Part shown: positions 51,274 through 64,000 of the stretch, one piece after another
How the letters are laid out: every line of letters starts with the position of its first letter
Numbering within the stretch: position 1 is the stretch's first letter
Assembly: GCF_002563715.1 (NCBI RefSeq)
Contig: NZ_PDJJ01000001.1
Location: 3,100,001-3,164,000 of the forward strand
Direction of reading: 5' to 3'
DNA length: 64,000 nucleotides
DNA from: Isoptericola jiangsuensis
GTDB taxonomy: Bacteria; Actinomycetota; Actinomycetes; Actinomycetales; Cellulomonadaceae
Translations under genes and position numbers: made by a program
Notes under the pieces: model-generated
The model's database searches: none
Told to the model about the DNA's origin: nothing
What the model saw: only the letters and a program-made list of their open reading frames with translations

Positions 51274-51437
51274 CCCCACGAGGCGACACGCCGGAGCGCG
51301 ACACGCCGAAGAGGTGCGATCCCGCCCTCTGCCGCACGATCCCAACGATAAGTCCGGACCAGCGGCCGCCCATTCTCTCGATCCGGTCAAGTTCAGGGTG
51401 AGAATCCACCCCGACTGTGTCTATGGTCGTTGACGGT

Positions 51438-52019
51438 ATGACGATCTTCGACCCAGCCCCCGTTGACCACACCTCCGCCGAGACCGAGCACGACGCCGAG
51501 CAGGCCGCCCCCGCGCGGGGCGCCCTCGGTCAGGACGGACCAGCTCGCCCGACGATCCGCCGCCCCGCCGTCACCGACGGCGCCGCGATGTGGCGGGTCG
51601 CCCGCGACTCCGGGACGCTCGACCTCAACTCGTCCTACGCCTACCTGCTGCTCGCCGACCACTTCGCGGCAACCAGCCGCGTCGCCGTCCTCGACGGCGA
51701 GGTCGTCGGGTTCGTCTCCGGCTACCTCACGCCCGACGACCCGACCCGCTGGTTCTGCTGGCAGGTCGCCGTCGACGAGCGCGCCCGCGGGCACCGCCTC
51801 GCCGGCCGCCTCCTCGACGCCGTGATCGACGACCACCCCTCCGTCACGTCGTTCGCCACGACCGTGACCAACGACAACACCGCCTCCCGTGCCGTGTTCC
51901 GCCGCTGGGCCGACGCCCGCGGCGCCACCCTCACGGAGACCGCCGGGTACGAGGCCGAGCACTTCCCCGACGGTCACGAGGCCGAGCCGCTGCTCGTCGT
52001 CGACGGCTTCCGTCGCTGA
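51438..52019 (+). CDS. ectA: L-2,4-diaminobutyrate N-acetyltransferase EctA
   Basis: GNAT enzyme that acetylates diaminobutyrate at the gamma amine in ectoine synthesis. 193 residues from ATG 51438; GTG 51417 and ATG 51423 are in frame and no RBS discriminates, while TATGGT (51422-51427) is a possible -10 that favours the late start. The first 35 residues are acidic and extra to the family core, which opens with RPTIRRPAVTDG and contains DLNSSYAYLLLADHF and the acetyl-CoA loop ERARGHRLAGRLL. First gene of ectABC. Confidence 0.92.
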   Translation: MTIFDPAPVDHTSAETEHDAEQAAPARGALGQDGPARPTIRRPAVTDGAAMWRVARDSGTLDLNSSYAYLLLADHFAATSRVAVLDGEVVGFVSGYLTPDDPTRWFCWQVAVDERARGHRLAGRLLDAVIDDHPSVTSFATTVTNDNTASRAVFRRWADARGATLTETAGYEAEHFPDGHEAEPLLVVDGFRR

Positions 52020-52122
52020 CGACGCACCGCACAGACTTGGGCTGCGCCGGTACGGCGCGCAGGTGACGACGCAGCCCCGACCCTTCACCGCACCGGCGCG
52101 CACCATCGAAGGAGTGTCATTC

Positions 52123-53415
52123 GTGACAACCTTGACCACCCCGACGCCCGACACCACCGCCGACCCGATGGGCTTCACCGCCCTGGAGTCCGAGGTCCGC
52201 AGCTACTCGCGGGCCTGGCCCGTGGTGTTCGACCGCGCCGTCGGGTCGACCGTCTTCGCCGAGGACGGCACCGAGTACCTCGACTTCTTCGCGGGCGCGG
52301 GCTCGCTCAACTACGGGCACAACAACCCCGTGCTGAAGAAGGTCCTGCTGGACTACCTCGCCGACGACCGCATGGTCCACTCGCTGGACATGCTGACCAG
52401 CGCCCGCCGCGAGTTCCTCGAGACGTTCCGCGCGCACATCCTCCAGCCGCGCGGCCTCGACCACAAGGTCGTCTTCCCCGGCCCGGGCGGCGCCAACGCC
52501 GTCGAGGCGGCCCTCAAGCTGGCCCGCAAGATCACCGGGCGCGAGTCCGTCGTGAACTTCACCAACGCGTTCCACGGCATGACGCTCGGCGCGCTCTCCG
52601 TCACGGGCAACTCGATGAAGCGCGGCGGCGCCGGCATCCCGCTGGTCCACGCCACCCCGATGCCGTACGACGACTACTTCAACGGCGACGTCTCCGACTT
52701 CCAGTACTTCCAGCGGATGCTGGAGGACTCCGGCAGCGGCCTCAACAAGCCCGCCGCCGTCATCGTCGAGACCGTCCAGGGCGAGGGCGGCATCAACGCC
52801 GCCCGCGCCGAGTGGCTGCGCGGCCTCGCGGACCTGTGCAAGGCCCACGACATCCTGCTCATCCTGGACGACATCCAGATGGGCTGCGGCCGCACCGGCG
52901 GGTTCTTCTCCTTCGAGGAGGCCGGGATCGTGCCGGACATCATCTGCCTGTCGAAGTCCATCTCCGGCTACGGCCTGCCGATGGCGATCACCCTGGTGCG
53001 CCCCGAGCTCGACGTGTGGGAGCCCGGCGAGCACAACGGCACGTTCCGCGGCTTCGCGCCCGCGTTCGCCACGGCGTCCGAGGCGATCCGCACGTACTGG
53101 TCCGACGACGCCCTGGAGCGCTCCGTGCGCGCCAAGGGCATGCTCGTGGAGAGCCACTTCAACACCGTGGTCTCCCGCTACCCGGACCTCGGGCTCGTCG
53201 CCAAGGGCCGCGGCCTGGCCCGCGGCCTCCAGCTCCCCGACGGCGAGACCGCCGGCCGGGTCACGGACGAGGCGTTCCGCCGCGGCCTCCTGGTCGAGAC
53301 GTCGGGCCCCGACGGCGAGGTCGTCAAGCTGCTGCCGCCGCTGACGATCACCGAGGACGAGCTGCGCCGCGGCCTGACGATCCTCGACGAGTCGTTCGCC
53401 GCCGTCCTCGGCTGA
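52123..53415 (+). CDS. ectB: diaminobutyrate-2-oxoglutarate transaminase EctB
   Basis: PLP enzyme that converts aspartate semialdehyde to L-2,4-diaminobutyrate with glutamate as amino donor. 430 residues from GTG 52123, preceded by [23 protein letters not shown], the Asp of [14 protein letters not shown] and the PLP Lys278 in [12 protein letters not shown] mark a class III aminotransferase of the EctB type. 103 nt separate it from ectA; ectC follows by 41 nt. Confidence 0.96.
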
Positions 53416-53456
53416 GCCGCCACCCGTCCCCCGACCCGCAGACCCGAGGAGGAACC

Positions 53457-53861
<405 letters not shown>

Positions 53862-53999: not shown

Positions 54000-55337
54000 T
54001 CAGCGGTCGTCGACGGCGCCGGTGAGGGTCGCCAGCCGCCGCTCCAGCAGCCGCCGGTCGCCCTCGCGGTCGACGAGCGCCAGCGCGACCCGCAGGGCGT
54101 CCGCGGCCTCGGCGGGACGGCCCAGGCGGGTGAGGAGCTCCGCCCGGACGGCGGGCAGCAGGTGGTAGCCCGCCAGCGCGGGGGCGCCGGCGAGGTCGTC
54201 CAGCGCCGCCAGCGCCGCCTCGGCACCGTGCACCTCGGCCAGGGCGACCGCCCGGTTCAGGCCCACCACCGGTGAGCCGGTCATGGCGGCCAGCACGTCG
54301 TAGAGGGCGAGGACCTCCACCCAGTCGGTGGACCCGACGTCGGCGGCCCGGGCGTGCAGCGCCGCCACCGCCGCCTGCACCTGGTACGGACCGGGGCGGC
54401 CCGCGGCGAGGGCGGCGTCCAGCACCGCCAGACCTTCGGCCGTCTCGTCGTCGCGCCACCGGGACCGGTCCTGCTCCGCCAGGACGAGGGCGGCGCCGTC
54501 CGGCCCGGTGCGCGCGTCCCGCCGGGCGTGCTGGAGCAGCGCCAGCGCGAGCAGCCCACGGGCCTCCGGCTCGTCGGGGAGCAGCCGCACGACGAGCCGG
54601 GCGAGCCGCACCGCGTCACCGGCCAGCGCACGCCGCTCGGCGGCCCCCTCGACGGCGTCGGCGGGCTCGGCCCAGGCGTCGTAGCCCTCGGTGAACAGCA
54701 CGTACAGGACCGTCAGGACGCCCGCCGTGCGCTCGGCCAGCAGGGTGGACGGCGGTACCCGGAAGACGATGCCGGTGTCGCGGATGCGCTTCTTCGCGCG
54801 GACGAGCCGCTGCGCCATCGTCGCCTCCGGCACGAGGAAGGCACGCGCGACCTGGGCCGTCGTCATGCCGGTCAGCGACCGCAGCGTGAGCGCGACCCGG
54901 CCGTCCAGCGGGATCGCCGGGTGGCAGCACGTGTAGACGAGCCGCAGCAGGTCGCCGTCCGGGTCGTCGAGCTCCCAGGCCCCGTCGTCCAGGCCGTCCG
55001 CCACCGCGGTCGGCACCGGGTCGGCGGACGGCCCGTCGGCCCGCGCACCCGGGCGCACCCGCTCCTCCAGACGGGCGGCCTCACCGGTCCGCTCCCGCTC
55101 GGTGCGGCGGCGGCGCAGCACGTCGATCGCGTGCCGGCGCGCCGTCGTCGTGAGCCAGGCTCCCGGCCGGTCGGGCACACCGTCGCGGGCCCAGGTCCGC
55201 ACGGCGGAGGCGAACGCCTCCTGCGTCGACTCCTCCGCCAGGTCGAGGTCGCCCGTGGAGCGCGCGACCGCGGCGAGGACGCGTCCCCACTCGGAGCGGA
55301 ACGCGTCCTCGACCGCGGCGCCGACCGTGCCCGTCAC
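54000..55337 (-). CDS. ECF42 family RNA polymerase sigma factor with TPR-like C-terminal domain
   Basis: 445 residues. Sigma region 2 (DLDLAEESTQEAFASAV) and region 4 (MTTAQVARAFLVPEATMAQRLV) occupy the first ~190 residues. The remaining 250 form an alpha-helical domain with NEGYD-like TEGYDAW and GLNRAVALAEVHG, which characterises ECF42. This domain, required for activity in the family, replaces a classical anti-sigma factor. GTG 55337 overlaps the stop of the DGPF gene (GTGA). Two DGPF proteins and a 53-residue gene precede it in one operon, and the operon has an ECF42-like promoter. Confidence 0.92.
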   Translation of the reverse strand: MTGTVGAAVEDAFRSEWGRVLAAVARSTGDLDLAEESTQEAFASAVRTWARDGVPDRPGAWLTTTARRHAIDVLRRRRTERERTGEAARLEERVRPGARADGPSADPVPTAVADGLDDGAWELDDPDGDLLRLVYTCCHPAIPLDGRVALTLRSLTGMTTAQVARAFLVPEATMAQRLVRAKKRIRDTGIVFRVPPSTLLAERTAGVLTVLYVLFTEGYDAWAEPADAVEGAAERRALAGDAVRLARLVVRLLPDEPEARGLLALALLQHARRDARTGPDGAALVLAEQDRSRWRDDETAEGLAVLDAALAAGRPGPYQVQAAVAALHARAADVGSTDWVEVLALYDVLAAMTGSPVVGLNRAVALAEVHGAEAALAALDDLAGAPALAGYHLLPAVRAELLTRLGRPAEAADALRVALALVDREGDRRLLERRLATLTGAVDDR

Positions 55338-55678
55338 GCGGGTCCGGCACCGTCCGTGGGCCAGAACGGGTGCACCTCGACCGTCGAGCCGCCCCACGCC
55401 CCCGGGTGCTCCGCCGCGATCGCGAGGGCGGTGGCGAGGTCCGGGGCCTCGACGACGTCGAACCCGCCGATCACCTCCTTGGACTCCGCGAACGGCCCGT
55501 CGGTGACCACCGGCCGGCCGTCGGTGACCTGCACGCGGCGGACGTCCGCCGCGGGCCGCAGCCGCTCGCCCAGCACGCGGGAGCCGTCGGCGTCGTGCCG
55601 GCGCACCCAGTCCTCGATGTCGGGGGTCGGGCCGCGGTCGGGCACGTCGGGCTCGTGGACGAGGAACAGGTACCGCAT
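55334..55678 (-). CDS. DGPF/YciI-domain protein 2 of the ECF42 operon
   Basis: 114 residues. MRYLFLVHEPD opening and VVTDGPFAESKEVIGGFDV motif define the DGPF (YCII-related) family, the standard target of ECF42 sigma factors; biochemical role unknown. ATG 55678 overlaps the upstream stop (TGATG). About half its residues match the neighbouring paralogue in the core, so the pair is a tandem duplication. Confidence 0.92.
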   Translation of the reverse strand: MRYLFLVHEPDVPDRGPTPDIEDWVRRHDADGSRVLGERLRPAADVRRVQVTDGRPVVTDGPFAESKEVIGGFDVVEAPDLATALAIAAEHPGAWGGSTVEVHPFWPTDGAGPA

Positions 55679-56046
55679 CACCCCTCACCGCCCTGGCCGT
55701 CGAGGTCCAGCGGCCACACGGGGCGCAGCTCGATCGCGCCCGCGTGCGCCATGGGGTGCTCCGACGCGACGGTGATCGCGGTGTCGAGGTCCGGGGCCTC
55801 GATGACGTCGAAGCCGCCGATCGCCTCCTTCGACTCCGCGAAGGGGCCGTCGGTGACGAGCACCTTCCCGCCCCGCACCCGGACGCCCACGGCGTCCTCG
55901 GGCGGGCGGAGCCGGTCCCCCGCCGAGGCGGTGCCGTCACCGTAGTAGCGGTCGACCCACCCCTCGATGGGCGGGGCGCCGGCCTCGTCCTGGGGGGTGA
56001 GGTCCGGGTCCTGGGGGGTGGAGAGCACCAGCATCAGGTAGCGCAT
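55678..56046 (-). CDS. DGPF/YciI-domain protein 1 of the ECF42 operon
   Basis: 122 residues: MRYLMLVLSTPQD, then VLVTDGPFAESKEAIGGFDV and a DxxxAxxxAxxHP helix typical of YCII-related ferredoxin-like folds. GAGGAGG before ATG 56046 is a strong RBS. Lies 10 nt after the 53-residue gene and overlaps the next DGPF gene by one base. Confidence 0.92.
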   Translation of the reverse strand: MRYLMLVLSTPQDPDLTPQDEAGAPPIEGWVDRYYGDGTASAGDRLRPPEDAVGVRVRGGKVLVTDGPFAESKEAIGGFDVIEAPDLDTAITVASEHPMAHAGAIELRPVWPLDLDGQGGEG

Positions 56047-56056
56047 CGCGTCCTCC

Positions 56057-56218
56057 TCAACGGGTCCCGACGCCCGGTCGGGCGTGCACGAGGGGTCCGA
56101 ACAGCACGACGTCGGCGGCGTCGACGCCGTCGCCGACACCGTACCTCCGCTCGGCGACGGCACGCCGGTGCCGCTCCACCTCGGGGCCCCGGCACAGGAT
56201 CGTGGTCAGGAATCGCAT
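56057..56218 (-). CDS. 53-residue protein heading the ECF42 operon
   Basis: Too short for most gene finders. ATG 56218 is preceded by AAGGAG at ideal distance, and the stop lies 10 nt before the RBS-bearing start of the first DGPF gene. The N-terminus MRFLTTILCRG resembles the first strand of the DGPF proteins downstream, but the DGPF motif is absent; the rest is Arg/Val-rich with VDAADVVLFGPLVHARP. It could be a small DGPF-like remnant or a genuine small regulator. It lies directly behind the candidate ECF42 promoter. Confidence 0.6.
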   Translation of the reverse strand: MRFLTTILCRGPEVERHRRAVAERRYGVGDGVDAADVVLFGPLVHARPGVGTR

Positions 56219-61350: not shown

Positions 61351-61731
61351 ATGCTGAGACGTATCGGCGTCGTCGCGTCCGTCGCCGCCCTCATGGCGCT
61401 CCTGGTCTACTCGATCGCCACCGGCAACGGCATCGCCGGCTGGATCCTGTCCCTCGCGCTGCCGGTCCTCGTCGTCTGCGGCGTCGTGCGACGCCGGCTG
61501 TCCGGGCACTCCGTCTCGTCCGCCGTCCGACCCGCCGCGCAGGGCTTGAACGAGGTCCAGGGTGTCGTCCTCAACCGCCCGGGCAGCGCGGTGATCTACG
61601 GGTCTCCGGTGCGGGACGTCGCGGCGGACCACGACGCCCGCTCCCGAGAGCCGCTCCTCAGCGAGCCGGACCGGAACGGAGGCGATCCGTCGCCCGACGA
61701 CGACCGGCCGCGGTCCGGTGCCGTTGGCTAG
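61351..61731 (+). CDS. small membrane protein with acidic tail
   Basis: 126 residues, family not recognised. Two hydrophobic segments (about 5-22 and 28-45, with WILSLALPVLVVCGVV) are joined by a short TGNGIAG loop; the remaining 75 residues are polar and end in an acidic/Pro-rich tail. GGGAGG lies 10 nt before ATG 61351; GTGs at 61342 and 61348 are in frame. The stop overlaps the stop of the convergent gene: both read TAG within a shared CTAG. Confidence 0.65.
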   Translation: MLRRIGVVASVAALMALLVYSIATGNGIAGWILSLALPVLVVCGVVRRRLSGHSVSSAVRPAAQGLNEVQGVVLNRPGSAVIYGSPVRDVAADHDARSREPLLSEPDRNGGDPSPDDDRPRSGAVG

Positions 61732-63293
61732 AGCGGGCGCCGCGCCACGAACGTCACGTGCGTGTCCGGCCACGCCACCGGCTCCCCCGTGGCGGCGTCG
61801 CGCAGCGCGGCCCCCACGGACAGCCGGTTCTCCACCAGCCACTCGTTGCGCCACGGCCCGCTCACCGGGTCGACGCTGAACCCCGCACCCTCCAGCAGCT
61901 CGACCCAGTCGGGCCAGGTCATGTCGCAGAACCGCTCGTGGCACTCCGACAGCCAGGAGTCGGTGTAGTCGCGCGTGTAGAGGAACTCCGCCGCGGCGCG
62001 CAGCGTCAGCTCGGCGACGCCGTCCGCCACCCACGTCACGTCGCACGCGCCGCCGGACAGCGCCGGGAAGTCGTGCGCGAACTGCACCAGCCGCTCCGCC
62101 GGGGACAGCGCCGCCACGTGCGCGGCGACGTCCGCCGTCGGCAGGCCGTCCAGGTCGGTCGCCGTGGCGCCCGCCCCCGCGCCGTCGAGGGCGACGTGCA
62201 CGAGCCGGTCCCCGCCCTCGGGACCCAGGACGTCCGAGCACACCCACACGCCGCCCGGAGCCGTGTGCTCGAAGATCCGCCGCGCCAGCAGCTCCAGGTC
62301 CGCCCGGCCCGCCCCGTAGCTGGAGATCTCGTGCGTGAGGGCGACCGTGAACGTCGTGCTGACCGACGCCGGCGGGAACACCGCCGAGCGCAGCAGGTTG
62401 CGCTGCGCGAAGAACACGTTCGGGTTCGCGAACACGCCCTGCGCCCGACGGTGCTCCGCCTCCGCGACCAGGTGCCGCGACACGTCCACCCCGTACAGGT
62501 CCGACTCCGCCAGCCGCGGGTCGCGGGCCGCCCGCTCCAGCAGCCCGCCCGCCGCGCAGCCCAGGTCCACCACCCGGCCCGGCACGACGAACGGCGCCAC
62601 CAGGTCCCACTTGCGGTCCGACGCGTCGTCGAACGCCGCGGTGTACGTGCGGTAGTCGCGCGTCGTCGTGAGGTCCCCCTCCGTGGAGACCGTCGGGTCG
62701 GCGTGGACCAGCTCGACCTGCGCCGCCAGGCGATAACGGTCGTAGTAGGCCACGGCCTCCGGGTGCGCGAGGTCGCGCCACCGGTCGTCACCGGCGGCCA
62801 GCAGCTCCAGCACGTCCCACGGGCGCAGCGGCTCGCCCGCCCCGTCGTCGGCGCGGTCCTCCACCGGCACCACACGGAACCCCAGGTCGGCGTACATCGC
62901 GACGACGGCGGGGGTCGAGCAGGCGACCACCGTGTCCCCGGGGGTCGCCGCGACCCCCGTCGACAGCTCGACGCTCGCCAGCACCGTGCGGGCGAAGCGT
63001 GGGCTCGGCGGCACGTCCGCCACCGGCGCGACCAGCGACGGCAGCCCCTCCAGGGCCGCGACACGCTCGATCATCGCCTCGCGGCGGTGCGCCGGCACCG
63101 GGTTGCGACGGGTGCCGCTGTGCGTCGCGGACGTCACCGCCCACACGACGTCCGCGCCCTCGGCGCACTCGACCGGCACGCCGTCGGCGTCGGTCAGGTC
63201 CCCGGCGAGCAGCCGGTGCAGGTACTCCGTCTGGAAGCGCGTCACCAGGTGGTGCCGGCCGGGGAACAGGACATGTCGGACGCGCGTGGGCAT
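61728..63293 (-). CDS. NMN-adenylyltransferase-like domain fused to a class I SAM methyltransferase
   Basis: 521 residues. Residues 205-521 are a methyltransferase: motif I VVDLGCAAGG (241-250), then LYGVDVSRHLVAEAE and a late VSTTFTVALTHEISS strand. Residues 1-200 resemble nicotinamide-nucleotide adenylyltransferases: FPGRHHLVTRFQTEYL (10-25) corresponds to GRFQPFHxGH, SATHSGTRRNPVPAHRREAM to the SAQxSHTxxNPFTxxER segment, and LRPWDVLELLAAGDDRW to SGTxIRxxMxxGxxW. The second catalytic His is replaced by Gln (Q21), so adenylyl transfer may be lost. ATG 63293 has CATCCT 7 nt upstream. Function unknown. Confidence 0.7.
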   Translation of the reverse strand: MPTRVRHVLFPGRHHLVTRFQTEYLHRLLAGDLTDADGVPVECAEGADVVWAVTSATHSGTRRNPVPAHRREAMIERVAALEGLPSLVAPVADVPPSPRFARTVLASVELSTGVAATPGDTVVACSTPAVVAMYADLGFRVVPVEDRADDGAGEPLRPWDVLELLAAGDDRWRDLAHPEAVAYYDRYRLAAQVELVHADPTVSTEGDLTTTRDYRTYTAAFDDASDRKWDLVAPFVVPGRVVDLGCAAGGLLERAARDPRLAESDLYGVDVSRHLVAEAEHRRAQGVFANPNVFFAQRNLLRSAVFPPASVSTTFTVALTHEISSYGAGRADLELLARRIFEHTAPGGVWVCSDVLGPEGGDRLVHVALDGAGAGATATDLDGLPTADVAAHVAALSPAERLVQFAHDFPALSGGACDVTWVADGVAELTLRAAAEFLYTRDYTDSWLSECHERFCDMTWPDWVELLEGAGFSVDPVSGPWRNEWLVENRLSVGAALRDAATGEPVAWPDTHVTFVARRPL

Positions 63294-63328: not shown

Positions 63329-63670
63329 TCAGGACTCCGCGTCGTCCATGATCTCGCGGACCTCCTGCGCGCACCGGCACGCCGCGGCGGTCCTCGCCGC
63401 CCACTCCAGCGCCTCGTCGCGCGTGGCGACGTCGACGACGCAGAACCCGCCGACCACGGCCTTCGTCTCCGGGAACGGGCCCGGCGTCACCGTGCCGTCC
63501 GTGCCCACGACCGTCGCCTGCTGCCGCTCCAGCCCGCCGCCGAACACCCACACCCCCGCGGCCTTCGCCTCCGCCGTCACCGCGTGGGCCGCCGCACCCA
63601 CGGCCGCGAAGTCCTCCTGCGGGATCGCGTCCATCGCACCGTCGTCGAACGAGATCAGGTACTTCGTCAT
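63329..63670 (-). CDS. YCII-related (DGPF-like) protein
   Basis: 113 residues. MTKYLISFDDGAMD, then VTPGPFPETKAVVGGFCVV (the DGPF core with PGPF in place of DGPF) and a helical AxxxAxxxA segment ending in CRCAQEVREIMDD. Two close Cys (CRC) are unusual for the family. AGGAGG precedes ATG 63670. No sigma factor adjoins it in the window, unlike the pair at 55.3-56.0 kb, so it may be a stand-alone member or one whose sigma factor lies elsewhere. Confidence 0.85.
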   Translation of the reverse strand: MTKYLISFDDGAMDAIPQEDFAAVGAAAHAVTAEAKAAGVWVFGGGLERQQATVVGTDGTVTPGPFPETKAVVGGFCVVDVATRDEALEWAARTAAACRCAQEVREIMDDAES

Positions 63671-63749
63671 CGCCGGTCCTCCTCGTGCTCGCGGCGGCCG
63701 GGCGGACGCCGCTCCGTCCCCCCGGTAGGACGGCTCCCGGCACCAGGAC

Positions 63750-64000
63750 TCATCGCCGCACGCCCGGCACCCCCTCCGACGGGGCGCCCGCGACCTCCGC
63801 GGCCAGGGCTCGGGCCTTGCGCGAGGCCGCCGCACCACCCGGTCGTGCCGCCAGGTCGGCGAGCCCGGGCCAGGTGGCCTGCTCCGCCGGGACCAGGCCC
63901 CGCCGGGCGGCCTCGCGCAGCACCGGGGCGTACTTCAGCGCGACGTCGAGGACCCGGTTGAGCCAGCGTGGCGGGCTCACGGCGTCCGCGGCGTGGCGCA
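63750..64000 (-). CDS. hypothetical protein, 5' end possibly outside the window
   Basis: The visible reading runs RHAADAVSPPRWLNRVLDVA into an Ala/Arg-rich helical region and ends GVPGVRR. GTG 63980 could be the start (76 residues), but the frame stays open to the window edge, so it may be the C-terminus of a longer protein. No family recognised. Confidence 0.45.
   Translation of the reverse strand, partial: RHAADAVSPPRWLNRVLDVALKYAPVLREAARRGLVPAEQATWPGLADLAARPGGAAASRKARALAAEVAGAPSEGVPGVRR

Follow-up and report, generated by a model that had tools for sequence, protein, structure and literature searches.

According to the accessible text of PMC9503650, NMN adenylyltransferase (NMNAT) domains are known as fusions with a Nudix domain (NadM) and with a kinase (NadR). 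The protein described here very probably combines an N-terminal NMNAT-fold domain with a C-terminal class I SAM-dependent methyltransferase. The original prediction knew of no described enzyme with this layout, and no description of such a fusion was found in the accessible parts of the open-access literature. Several described systems resemble it in part. NadM of M. thermoautotrophicum (PDB 1hyb/1ej2) and of M. jannaschii (1f9a) has the NMNAT fold in common with its N-terminal domain; however, the fusion protein has TxFQ in place of HxGH, a hydrophobic residue in place of the arginine of SGTEIR, and an appended methyltransferase. NadM-Nudix proteins likewise join an NMNAT-fold domain to a second domain, but this partner is Nudix and not a methyltransferase. 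NadR, an NMNAT domain with a nicotinamide riboside kinase, is also a multidomain protein of NAD salvage (PMC9503650), but its partner is a kinase and it lacks a methyltransferase. Generic class I SAM methyltransferases (Pfam Methyltransf_25/12/31) share the SAM motif and the core fold, whereas the fusion protein adds the N-terminal domain and a family-specific insert (about residues 357-480). Fom1 and PhpF are similar in being HIGH-superfamily nucleotidyltransferases, and the Fom1 step in fosfomycin synthesis is coupled to a later methylation; however, they belong to the PF01467 family, which members of the fusion family do not match. Finally, three proteins of uncultured Caudovirales phages in BFVD (A0A6J5LHE8, A0A6J5LF86, and A0A6J7WTS2), named cytidyltransferase-like, align with the model of the fusion protein over 258-491 columns, but with TM 0.22-0.26 by its length and rmsd 7-19 A; they possibly contain both domain types and may have arrived at this kind of protein separately.

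In the window (the whole stretch of DNA analysed, 64,000 nucleotides of Isoptericola jiangsuensis, whose 4.04 Mb genome is a single contig), the fusion protein is encoded on the minus strand by an ORF of 521 codons that runs from an ATG at position 63293 down to 61728, at the coordinates originally stated. The ORF is a real conserved gene: in a scan with each species represented by one genome, relatives matching nearly its whole length are encoded at 36 loci. Its features are as follows.

61728..63293, minus strand: whole gene, 521 aa, NMNAT-fold domain and class I SAM methyltransferase (from the ORF and near-full-length relatives)
62703..63278, minus strand: predicted NadM-type NMN adenylyltransferase fold, residues 6-197
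63231..63263, minus strand: nucleotide loop PGRHHLVTRFQ, residues 11-21, with TxFQ replacing HxGH (from conservation)
63081..63134, minus strand: TSATHSGTRRNPVPAHRR, residues 54-71, the counterpart of SAQxSHTxxNPFxxxxR in NadM
62808..62825, minus strand: RPWDVL, residues 157-162, at the place of SGTEIR in the alignment with M. jannaschii NadM
61731..62582, minus strand: class I SAM-dependent methyltransferase, residues 238-521, including a long insert (about 357-480)
62547..62579, minus strand: SAM-binding motif I, residues 239-249 (G239, D243, G245, C246, and G249 invariant)
62313..62336, minus strand: THEISSYG, residues 320-327, candidate methyl-acceptor pocket (T320, H321, E322, S325, and Y326 invariant)

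In the predicted structure of the window protein, 17 of the 20 ten-residue blocks of residues 1-200 have pLDDT above 80, and a structural search with this model matched these residues to the NMNAT (HIGH nucleotidyltransferase) fold. The confident prediction is thus of an NMNAT fold and not of a non-nucleotidyltransferase one, and the proposed likeness of the N-terminal ~200 residues to NMN adenylyltransferases holds, the motif segments being invariant in the family. Both models have pTM of 0.61-0.62, too low to define the mutual arrangement of the domains. The second model is that of a Bacteroidota member carrying the same sequence motifs as the window protein; structure searches with it returned methyltransferases only, and no NMNAT, among the best 50 matches listed.

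At the profile level, the family matches M. jannaschii NadM (1f9a) with E 2.3e-5, and 13 of 19 N-terminal domains have hits to the NadM models of NCBIfam at E <= 1 (best 1.5e-6), the domain of the window protein scoring below the curated NadM cut-offs (17.0 bits vs. 127 for NF002243, and 14.1 vs. 181.2 for TIGR01527). One relative (L025) is similar to the NadM-Nudix protein of an operon described below by tblastn (E 1.5e-6), and the similarity is also seen by profile (E 1.7e-6), in both cases with RFQ placed on RFQ. A PF01467 match at E <= 1 was absent from all 28 members in the Pfam scan, and the Pfam, PHROGs, and NCBIfam scans name with confidence the methyltransferase only. Matches to dodecin (E 0.05 and above) were taken as chance; none occurred among the 60 profile-search matches listed.

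Two segments, P-G-R-H-H-x-x-T-x-x-Q and T-S-x-x-H-x-x-T-x-R-N-P-x-P-x-x-x-R, are invariant in all 37 aligned sequences, which come from three phyla. In the loop, the fixed residues are P11, G12, R13, H14, H15, T18, and Q21, and the position before Q21 is F or Y. In a second alignment of 20 sequences, eight of them beyond the first set, the sole change in the motif letters is from the second His to Gln in three Bacteroidota. Such conservation is far beyond chance. The GRHQ loops resulting from this change occur at L066, L067, and L071, two of these copies lying in the fullest NAD operons.

By the structural offset, model residue 6 lies on residue 4 of the NadM chain, and T18-x-F20-Q21 falls on H16-x-G18-H19, which we take to be the HxGH motif. 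An [H/T]xGH motif is absent from the first 60 residues of all 20 members in either register, TxFQ or TxYQ being found instead; the claimed replacement of the HxGH histidine by Gln is therefore borne out, with TxFQ at the motif site. A sequence-only alignment prefers the other register, with RFQ on RFQ; it was set aside, as G12-R13 comes to lie on the G-R loop of NadM according to both the structural offset and the first strand of the model (residues 5-12). The SGTEIR segment of 1f9a aligns to RPWDVL, and at its Arg position the 37 sequences have L (29), V (7), or I (1). This late S-x-T-x-x-R of NadM is presumably a phosphate-binding motif. We further assume that the nicotinamide contacts of NadM are an Asn and a Trp; the aligned positions are occupied by A101 (37/37) and by V or T at 104, and, with both contacts replaced, the ligand may be something other than NMN as such. 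In the 20-sequence alignment, 28 of the 192 positions of the N-terminal domain and 23 of the 119 of the methyltransferase core are invariant, and such constraint on both domains argues against a decaying leftover.

NMNATs bind the diphosphate of NAD through the Arg of their catalytic loop and build the adenine pocket from the helix that carries the HIGH motif (PMC6957218, accessible text); in the fusion family the loop Arg (R13) is retained in 37/37 sequences while the HIGH motif is altered. The H19A mutant of E. coli NadD retains 0.62% activity (PMC1249556). According to the available part of PMC3509593, replacement of H28 or H31 by Ala or Asp in C. ammoniagenes FADS abolished detectable turnover, while Kd for FMN changed from 7.8 to 6.1-18 uM, that is, within about 2.3-fold; binding of ATP and FAD was weaker in several of the mutants. 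No His-to-Gln change is among these mutants, so binding without transfer is what we infer for the fusion protein. Loss of nucleotide transfer itself, suggested originally from the HxGH change, is probable, as HxGH and the late Arg are both replaced.

The C-terminal part had been described as a complete methyltransferase, and the window protein does score above gathering for PF13649 (30.4 bits vs. 27) and PF08242 (30.4 vs. 30), with D243, G245, C246, and G249 of the glycine-rich SAM motif I present in 37/37 sequences. The candidate role of THEISSYG as the methyl-acceptor pocket is suggested by its conservation.

The relatives at the 36 loci of the scan show 85-32% identity and belong to Kineococcus, Cellulomonas, Sanguibacter, Cellulosimicrobium, Nocardioides, Micromonospora, and other genera, as well as to Bacteroidota and a Spirochaetes MAG. 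The gene is rare and patchy. Whole-genome searches, in which counts include the centre genome of each sample, found it in 5/149 genomes of its own order, 3/395 of the Bacteroidota phylum sample, 8/147 of one Bacteroidota family (one with fragments only), 1/395 of the order of Spongiivirga, and 4/149 of the phylum of the Spirochaetes MAG (one partial); among 198 genomes of its own phylum, the only full-length match was in its own genome. It is absent from the four other same-genus and six same-family genomes listed. Two weak own-phylum matches (L046 and L047) were not counted as family, since only the methyltransferase core was covered. The partial copy included in the 4/149 count is at a contig end (G656, L056) and was left out of the trees, tables, and NadV test. 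The window copy groups with those of Kineococcus xinjiangensis and Cellulomonas cellasea with support 100/100, its nearest relatives in the tree being Actinomycetota; this grouping with other genera, together with the patchy spread, suggests transfer of the gene between genera. In the Bacteroidota genome G763, two fragments (query residues 380-528 and 79-164) are located on contigs C2 and C84 (L063 and L064), both away from contig ends, indicating a broken copy or a mixed assembly; this genome was kept in the 8/147 count and left out of the ten Bacteroidota loci considered below.

These ten loci are L065 to L071, L043, L074, and L075. The copy at L070 is ~25 residues short (502 aa, motifs intact) and was counted here, though not included in alignment A4; the sequences of L043 (4.8 kb) and L071 (11.3 kb) are short, with genes farther out beyond view. 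A regulator of the NrtR family flanks the gene or belongs to the same run in eight of the ten loci and was not seen at L068 and L075. It is named by Pfam at L065 and L074, the copies at other loci being at least 57% identical to these. NrtR is the next gene in five loci, with gaps of 13-121 bp (divergent in L071), and in three (L065, L066, and L067) it heads a same-strand run reaching the gene. These three runs begin with NrtR and a NadM-Nudix-like gene, continue with NadV, and extend onward to the methyltransferase-fusion gene; their members include PRPP synthetase (L065, L067), a HAD-like phosphatase, SPFH (L065, L066), an NAD-kinase-like protein (L065, L066), and ADP-ribosylglycohydrolase (L066, L067). 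At L070 and L074, the fusion gene comes first, followed by NrtR and NadV. Overall, NadV shares a run with the gene in 5/10 loci and NadM-Nudix in 4/10, the latter, unlike the fusion protein, with HxGH intact in 4/4. NadV scores over its curated cut-off in L065, while the names HAD, NAD kinase, and NadM-Nudix in these runs rest on scores below the NCBIfam cut-offs. Taken together, the gene set of the operon makes up a cycle in which ADP-ribose and nicotinamide are turned into NAD again. The uncharacterised companions across L065, L066, L067, L070, and L074 are SPFH, the NAD-kinase-like protein, and the small HAD-like phosphatase, and the L074 operon also encodes a nucleoside 2-deoxyribosyltransferase-like protein.

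Among the 147 genomes of one Bacteroidota family, 8 have the gene, 14 have NadV, and 5 have both, NadV being present in 5/8 carriers vs. 9/139 non-carriers (Fisher p 1.8e-4, or 0.0012 without the fragments-only genome G763; both values ignore phylogeny). Among all Bacteroidota carriers tested, NadV was found in 8 of 11, G763 included, and three lack it. NrtR occurs in 104/147 genomes of the same family, with no difference between carriers and non-carriers (p 0.11); as it is so common, the weight is carried by adjacency and not by presence, and the rough chance of NrtR being the next gene is 0.0005-0.0024 per genome (computed for three genomes). Regulators of the NrtR family can also control sugar genes (PMC4666351, accessible text), but NadV, NadM-Nudix, and ADP-ribosylglycohydrolase beside NrtR point here to NAD rather than to sugar.

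This adjacency of NrtR and NAD salvage genes was not seen at the actinobacterial and Spirochaetota loci examined. No NAD gene was recognised among ten actinobacterial neighbours (one per locus), which have unrelated Pfam domains or none, nor among six neighbours at three Spirochaetota loci (CAP, CBM96 below cut-off, Usp, SBF, DUF218, and TauE). A search for a neighbour kept widely across the actinobacterial loci found none, only close relatives sharing neighbours (one of the 18 loci compared gave no gene call). NadV was absent from 7/7 actinobacterial and 3/3 Spirochaetota carriers tested; its absence in the gene's own lineage is uninformative, since it is also absent from 10/10 same-genus or same-family genomes without the gene. 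Hence, the case for an NAD role comes from association in a single phylum.

A role in NAD or ADP-ribose metabolism, which had been called speculative, gains support from the NrtR/NadV/NadM-Nudix operons and is quite likely, at least in Bacteroidota. Tentatively, we propose as the most plausible reading a single-chain enzyme of NAD metabolism, in which a retired NMNAT domain would hold or sense a nucleotide and the SAM methyltransferase would act on this nucleotide or on a metabolite tied to it. The N-terminal domain appears to keep the nucleotide-pocket architecture and the loop Arg; with HxGH and the late Arg lost, it most likely no longer makes NAD. Instead, it most likely binds a pyridine or adenine nucleotide, such as NMN, NAD, damaged NAD, or ADP-ribose, and the class I methyltransferase would then use SAM to methylate the bound nucleotide or a closely tied metabolite. 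Since its gene in Bacteroidota accompanies recycling genes headed by NrtR (Nudix, PRPP synthetase, NadV, and NadM), the fusion protein probably serves to tag, clear, or repair some product of the NAD recycling cycle. That the methyl acceptor is a pyridine nucleotide (NMN, NAD, NADP, or a damaged form) or ADP-ribose, which would make this a previously undescribed SAM-dependent methylation, is possible but somewhat doubtful. The actinobacterial copy of the window would presumably do the same job as the Bacteroidota copies.

Other explanations share part of this evidence. A nucleotide-pocket fold that has lost its catalytic residues would also suit a domain acting only as a sensor, which binds NMN, NAD, or ADP-ribose and switches a methyltransferase acting on protein, RNA, or a small molecule. 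The methyltransferase indeed has its own conserved pocket (T320, H321, E322, S325, and Y326, with residues of the insert), and NrtR, a Nudix fold turned ligand sensor (PMC4666351), provides a precedent; however, no candidate substrate gene was seen to travel with the family in Actinomycetota, where only close relatives share neighbours, and we consider this option unlikely. The invariance of T18 and Q21 in 37/37 sequences, as if functional, could also mean that the N-terminal domain is an active nucleotidyltransferase with an altered TxFQ, attaching AMP or CMP to an acceptor that is then methylated. Class I TrpRS has TIGN in the place of HIGH, and in fosfomycin biosynthesis Fom1 makes CMP-HEP, which is methylated by Fom3. 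The loss of the late Arg as well, the lack of PF01467 matches in a family compared with the PF01467-type cytidylyltransferases Fom1 and PhpF (PMC6697681), and the absence of phosphonate or other biosynthetic clusters among the neighbours scanned make such an activity quite improbable.

It is still less probable that the NAD-operon link is a Bacteroidota side-line and that the actinobacterial copy has an orphan function of another kind: the two clades are deeply split (branches 0.96 and 1.27), and neither NadV nor NAD neighbours were recognised in the actinobacterial carriers tested, but the motifs of both domains are the same in the two clades. The original prediction also allowed for defence or natural-product chemistry. 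The patchy distribution, with 5/149 genomes in its own order and four same-genus genomes without the gene, would fit anti-phage defence or natural-product tailoring, and the PADLOC profile of mad2, a protein of the MADS defence system, matches 24/28 members at E <= 0.1; however, for the window protein this match (E 1.2e-8) spans profile positions 291-400 only (110/492), that is, the methyltransferase core. Moreover, no relatives were found in plasmids (searched with the window protein), phages (with the L041 protein of Spongiivirga citrea), or viral contigs, and no defence or biosynthetic gene was recognised among the neighbours scanned, so that this part of the prediction found no support and such a role is extremely unlikely.

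The proposed NAD-metabolism enzyme matters because, in a field regarded as well mapped, a conserved methyltransferase without an assigned step lies inside the NAD recycling operons of several Bacteroidota. If the fusion protein methylates or senses a pyridine nucleotide, NAD would have a further chemical fate, or SAM and NAD would be joined by a new control link. Methylation of a pyridine nucleotide or ADP-ribose would add a branch to NAD recycling or repair in bacteria, with the family present in at least three phyla. The family offers clear test proteins and a short list of candidate ligands.

In the window, the gene is preceded on the same strand, with a 35 bp gap, by a gene for a YCII-domain protein (63329-63838, minus strand), which was not noticed beside the other members scanned; on the downstream side are a gene for a Na+/H+ exchanger and a small plus-strand ORF that matches no Pfam family. 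Two more YCII-domain ORFs adjoin a sigma-70 factor with a DUF6596 tail (54000-56163, minus strand). A compatible-solute cluster with ectoine synthase (Pfam) is located at 51417-53861 on the plus strand, the genes ahead of ectoine synthase being presumably those of EctA and EctB.
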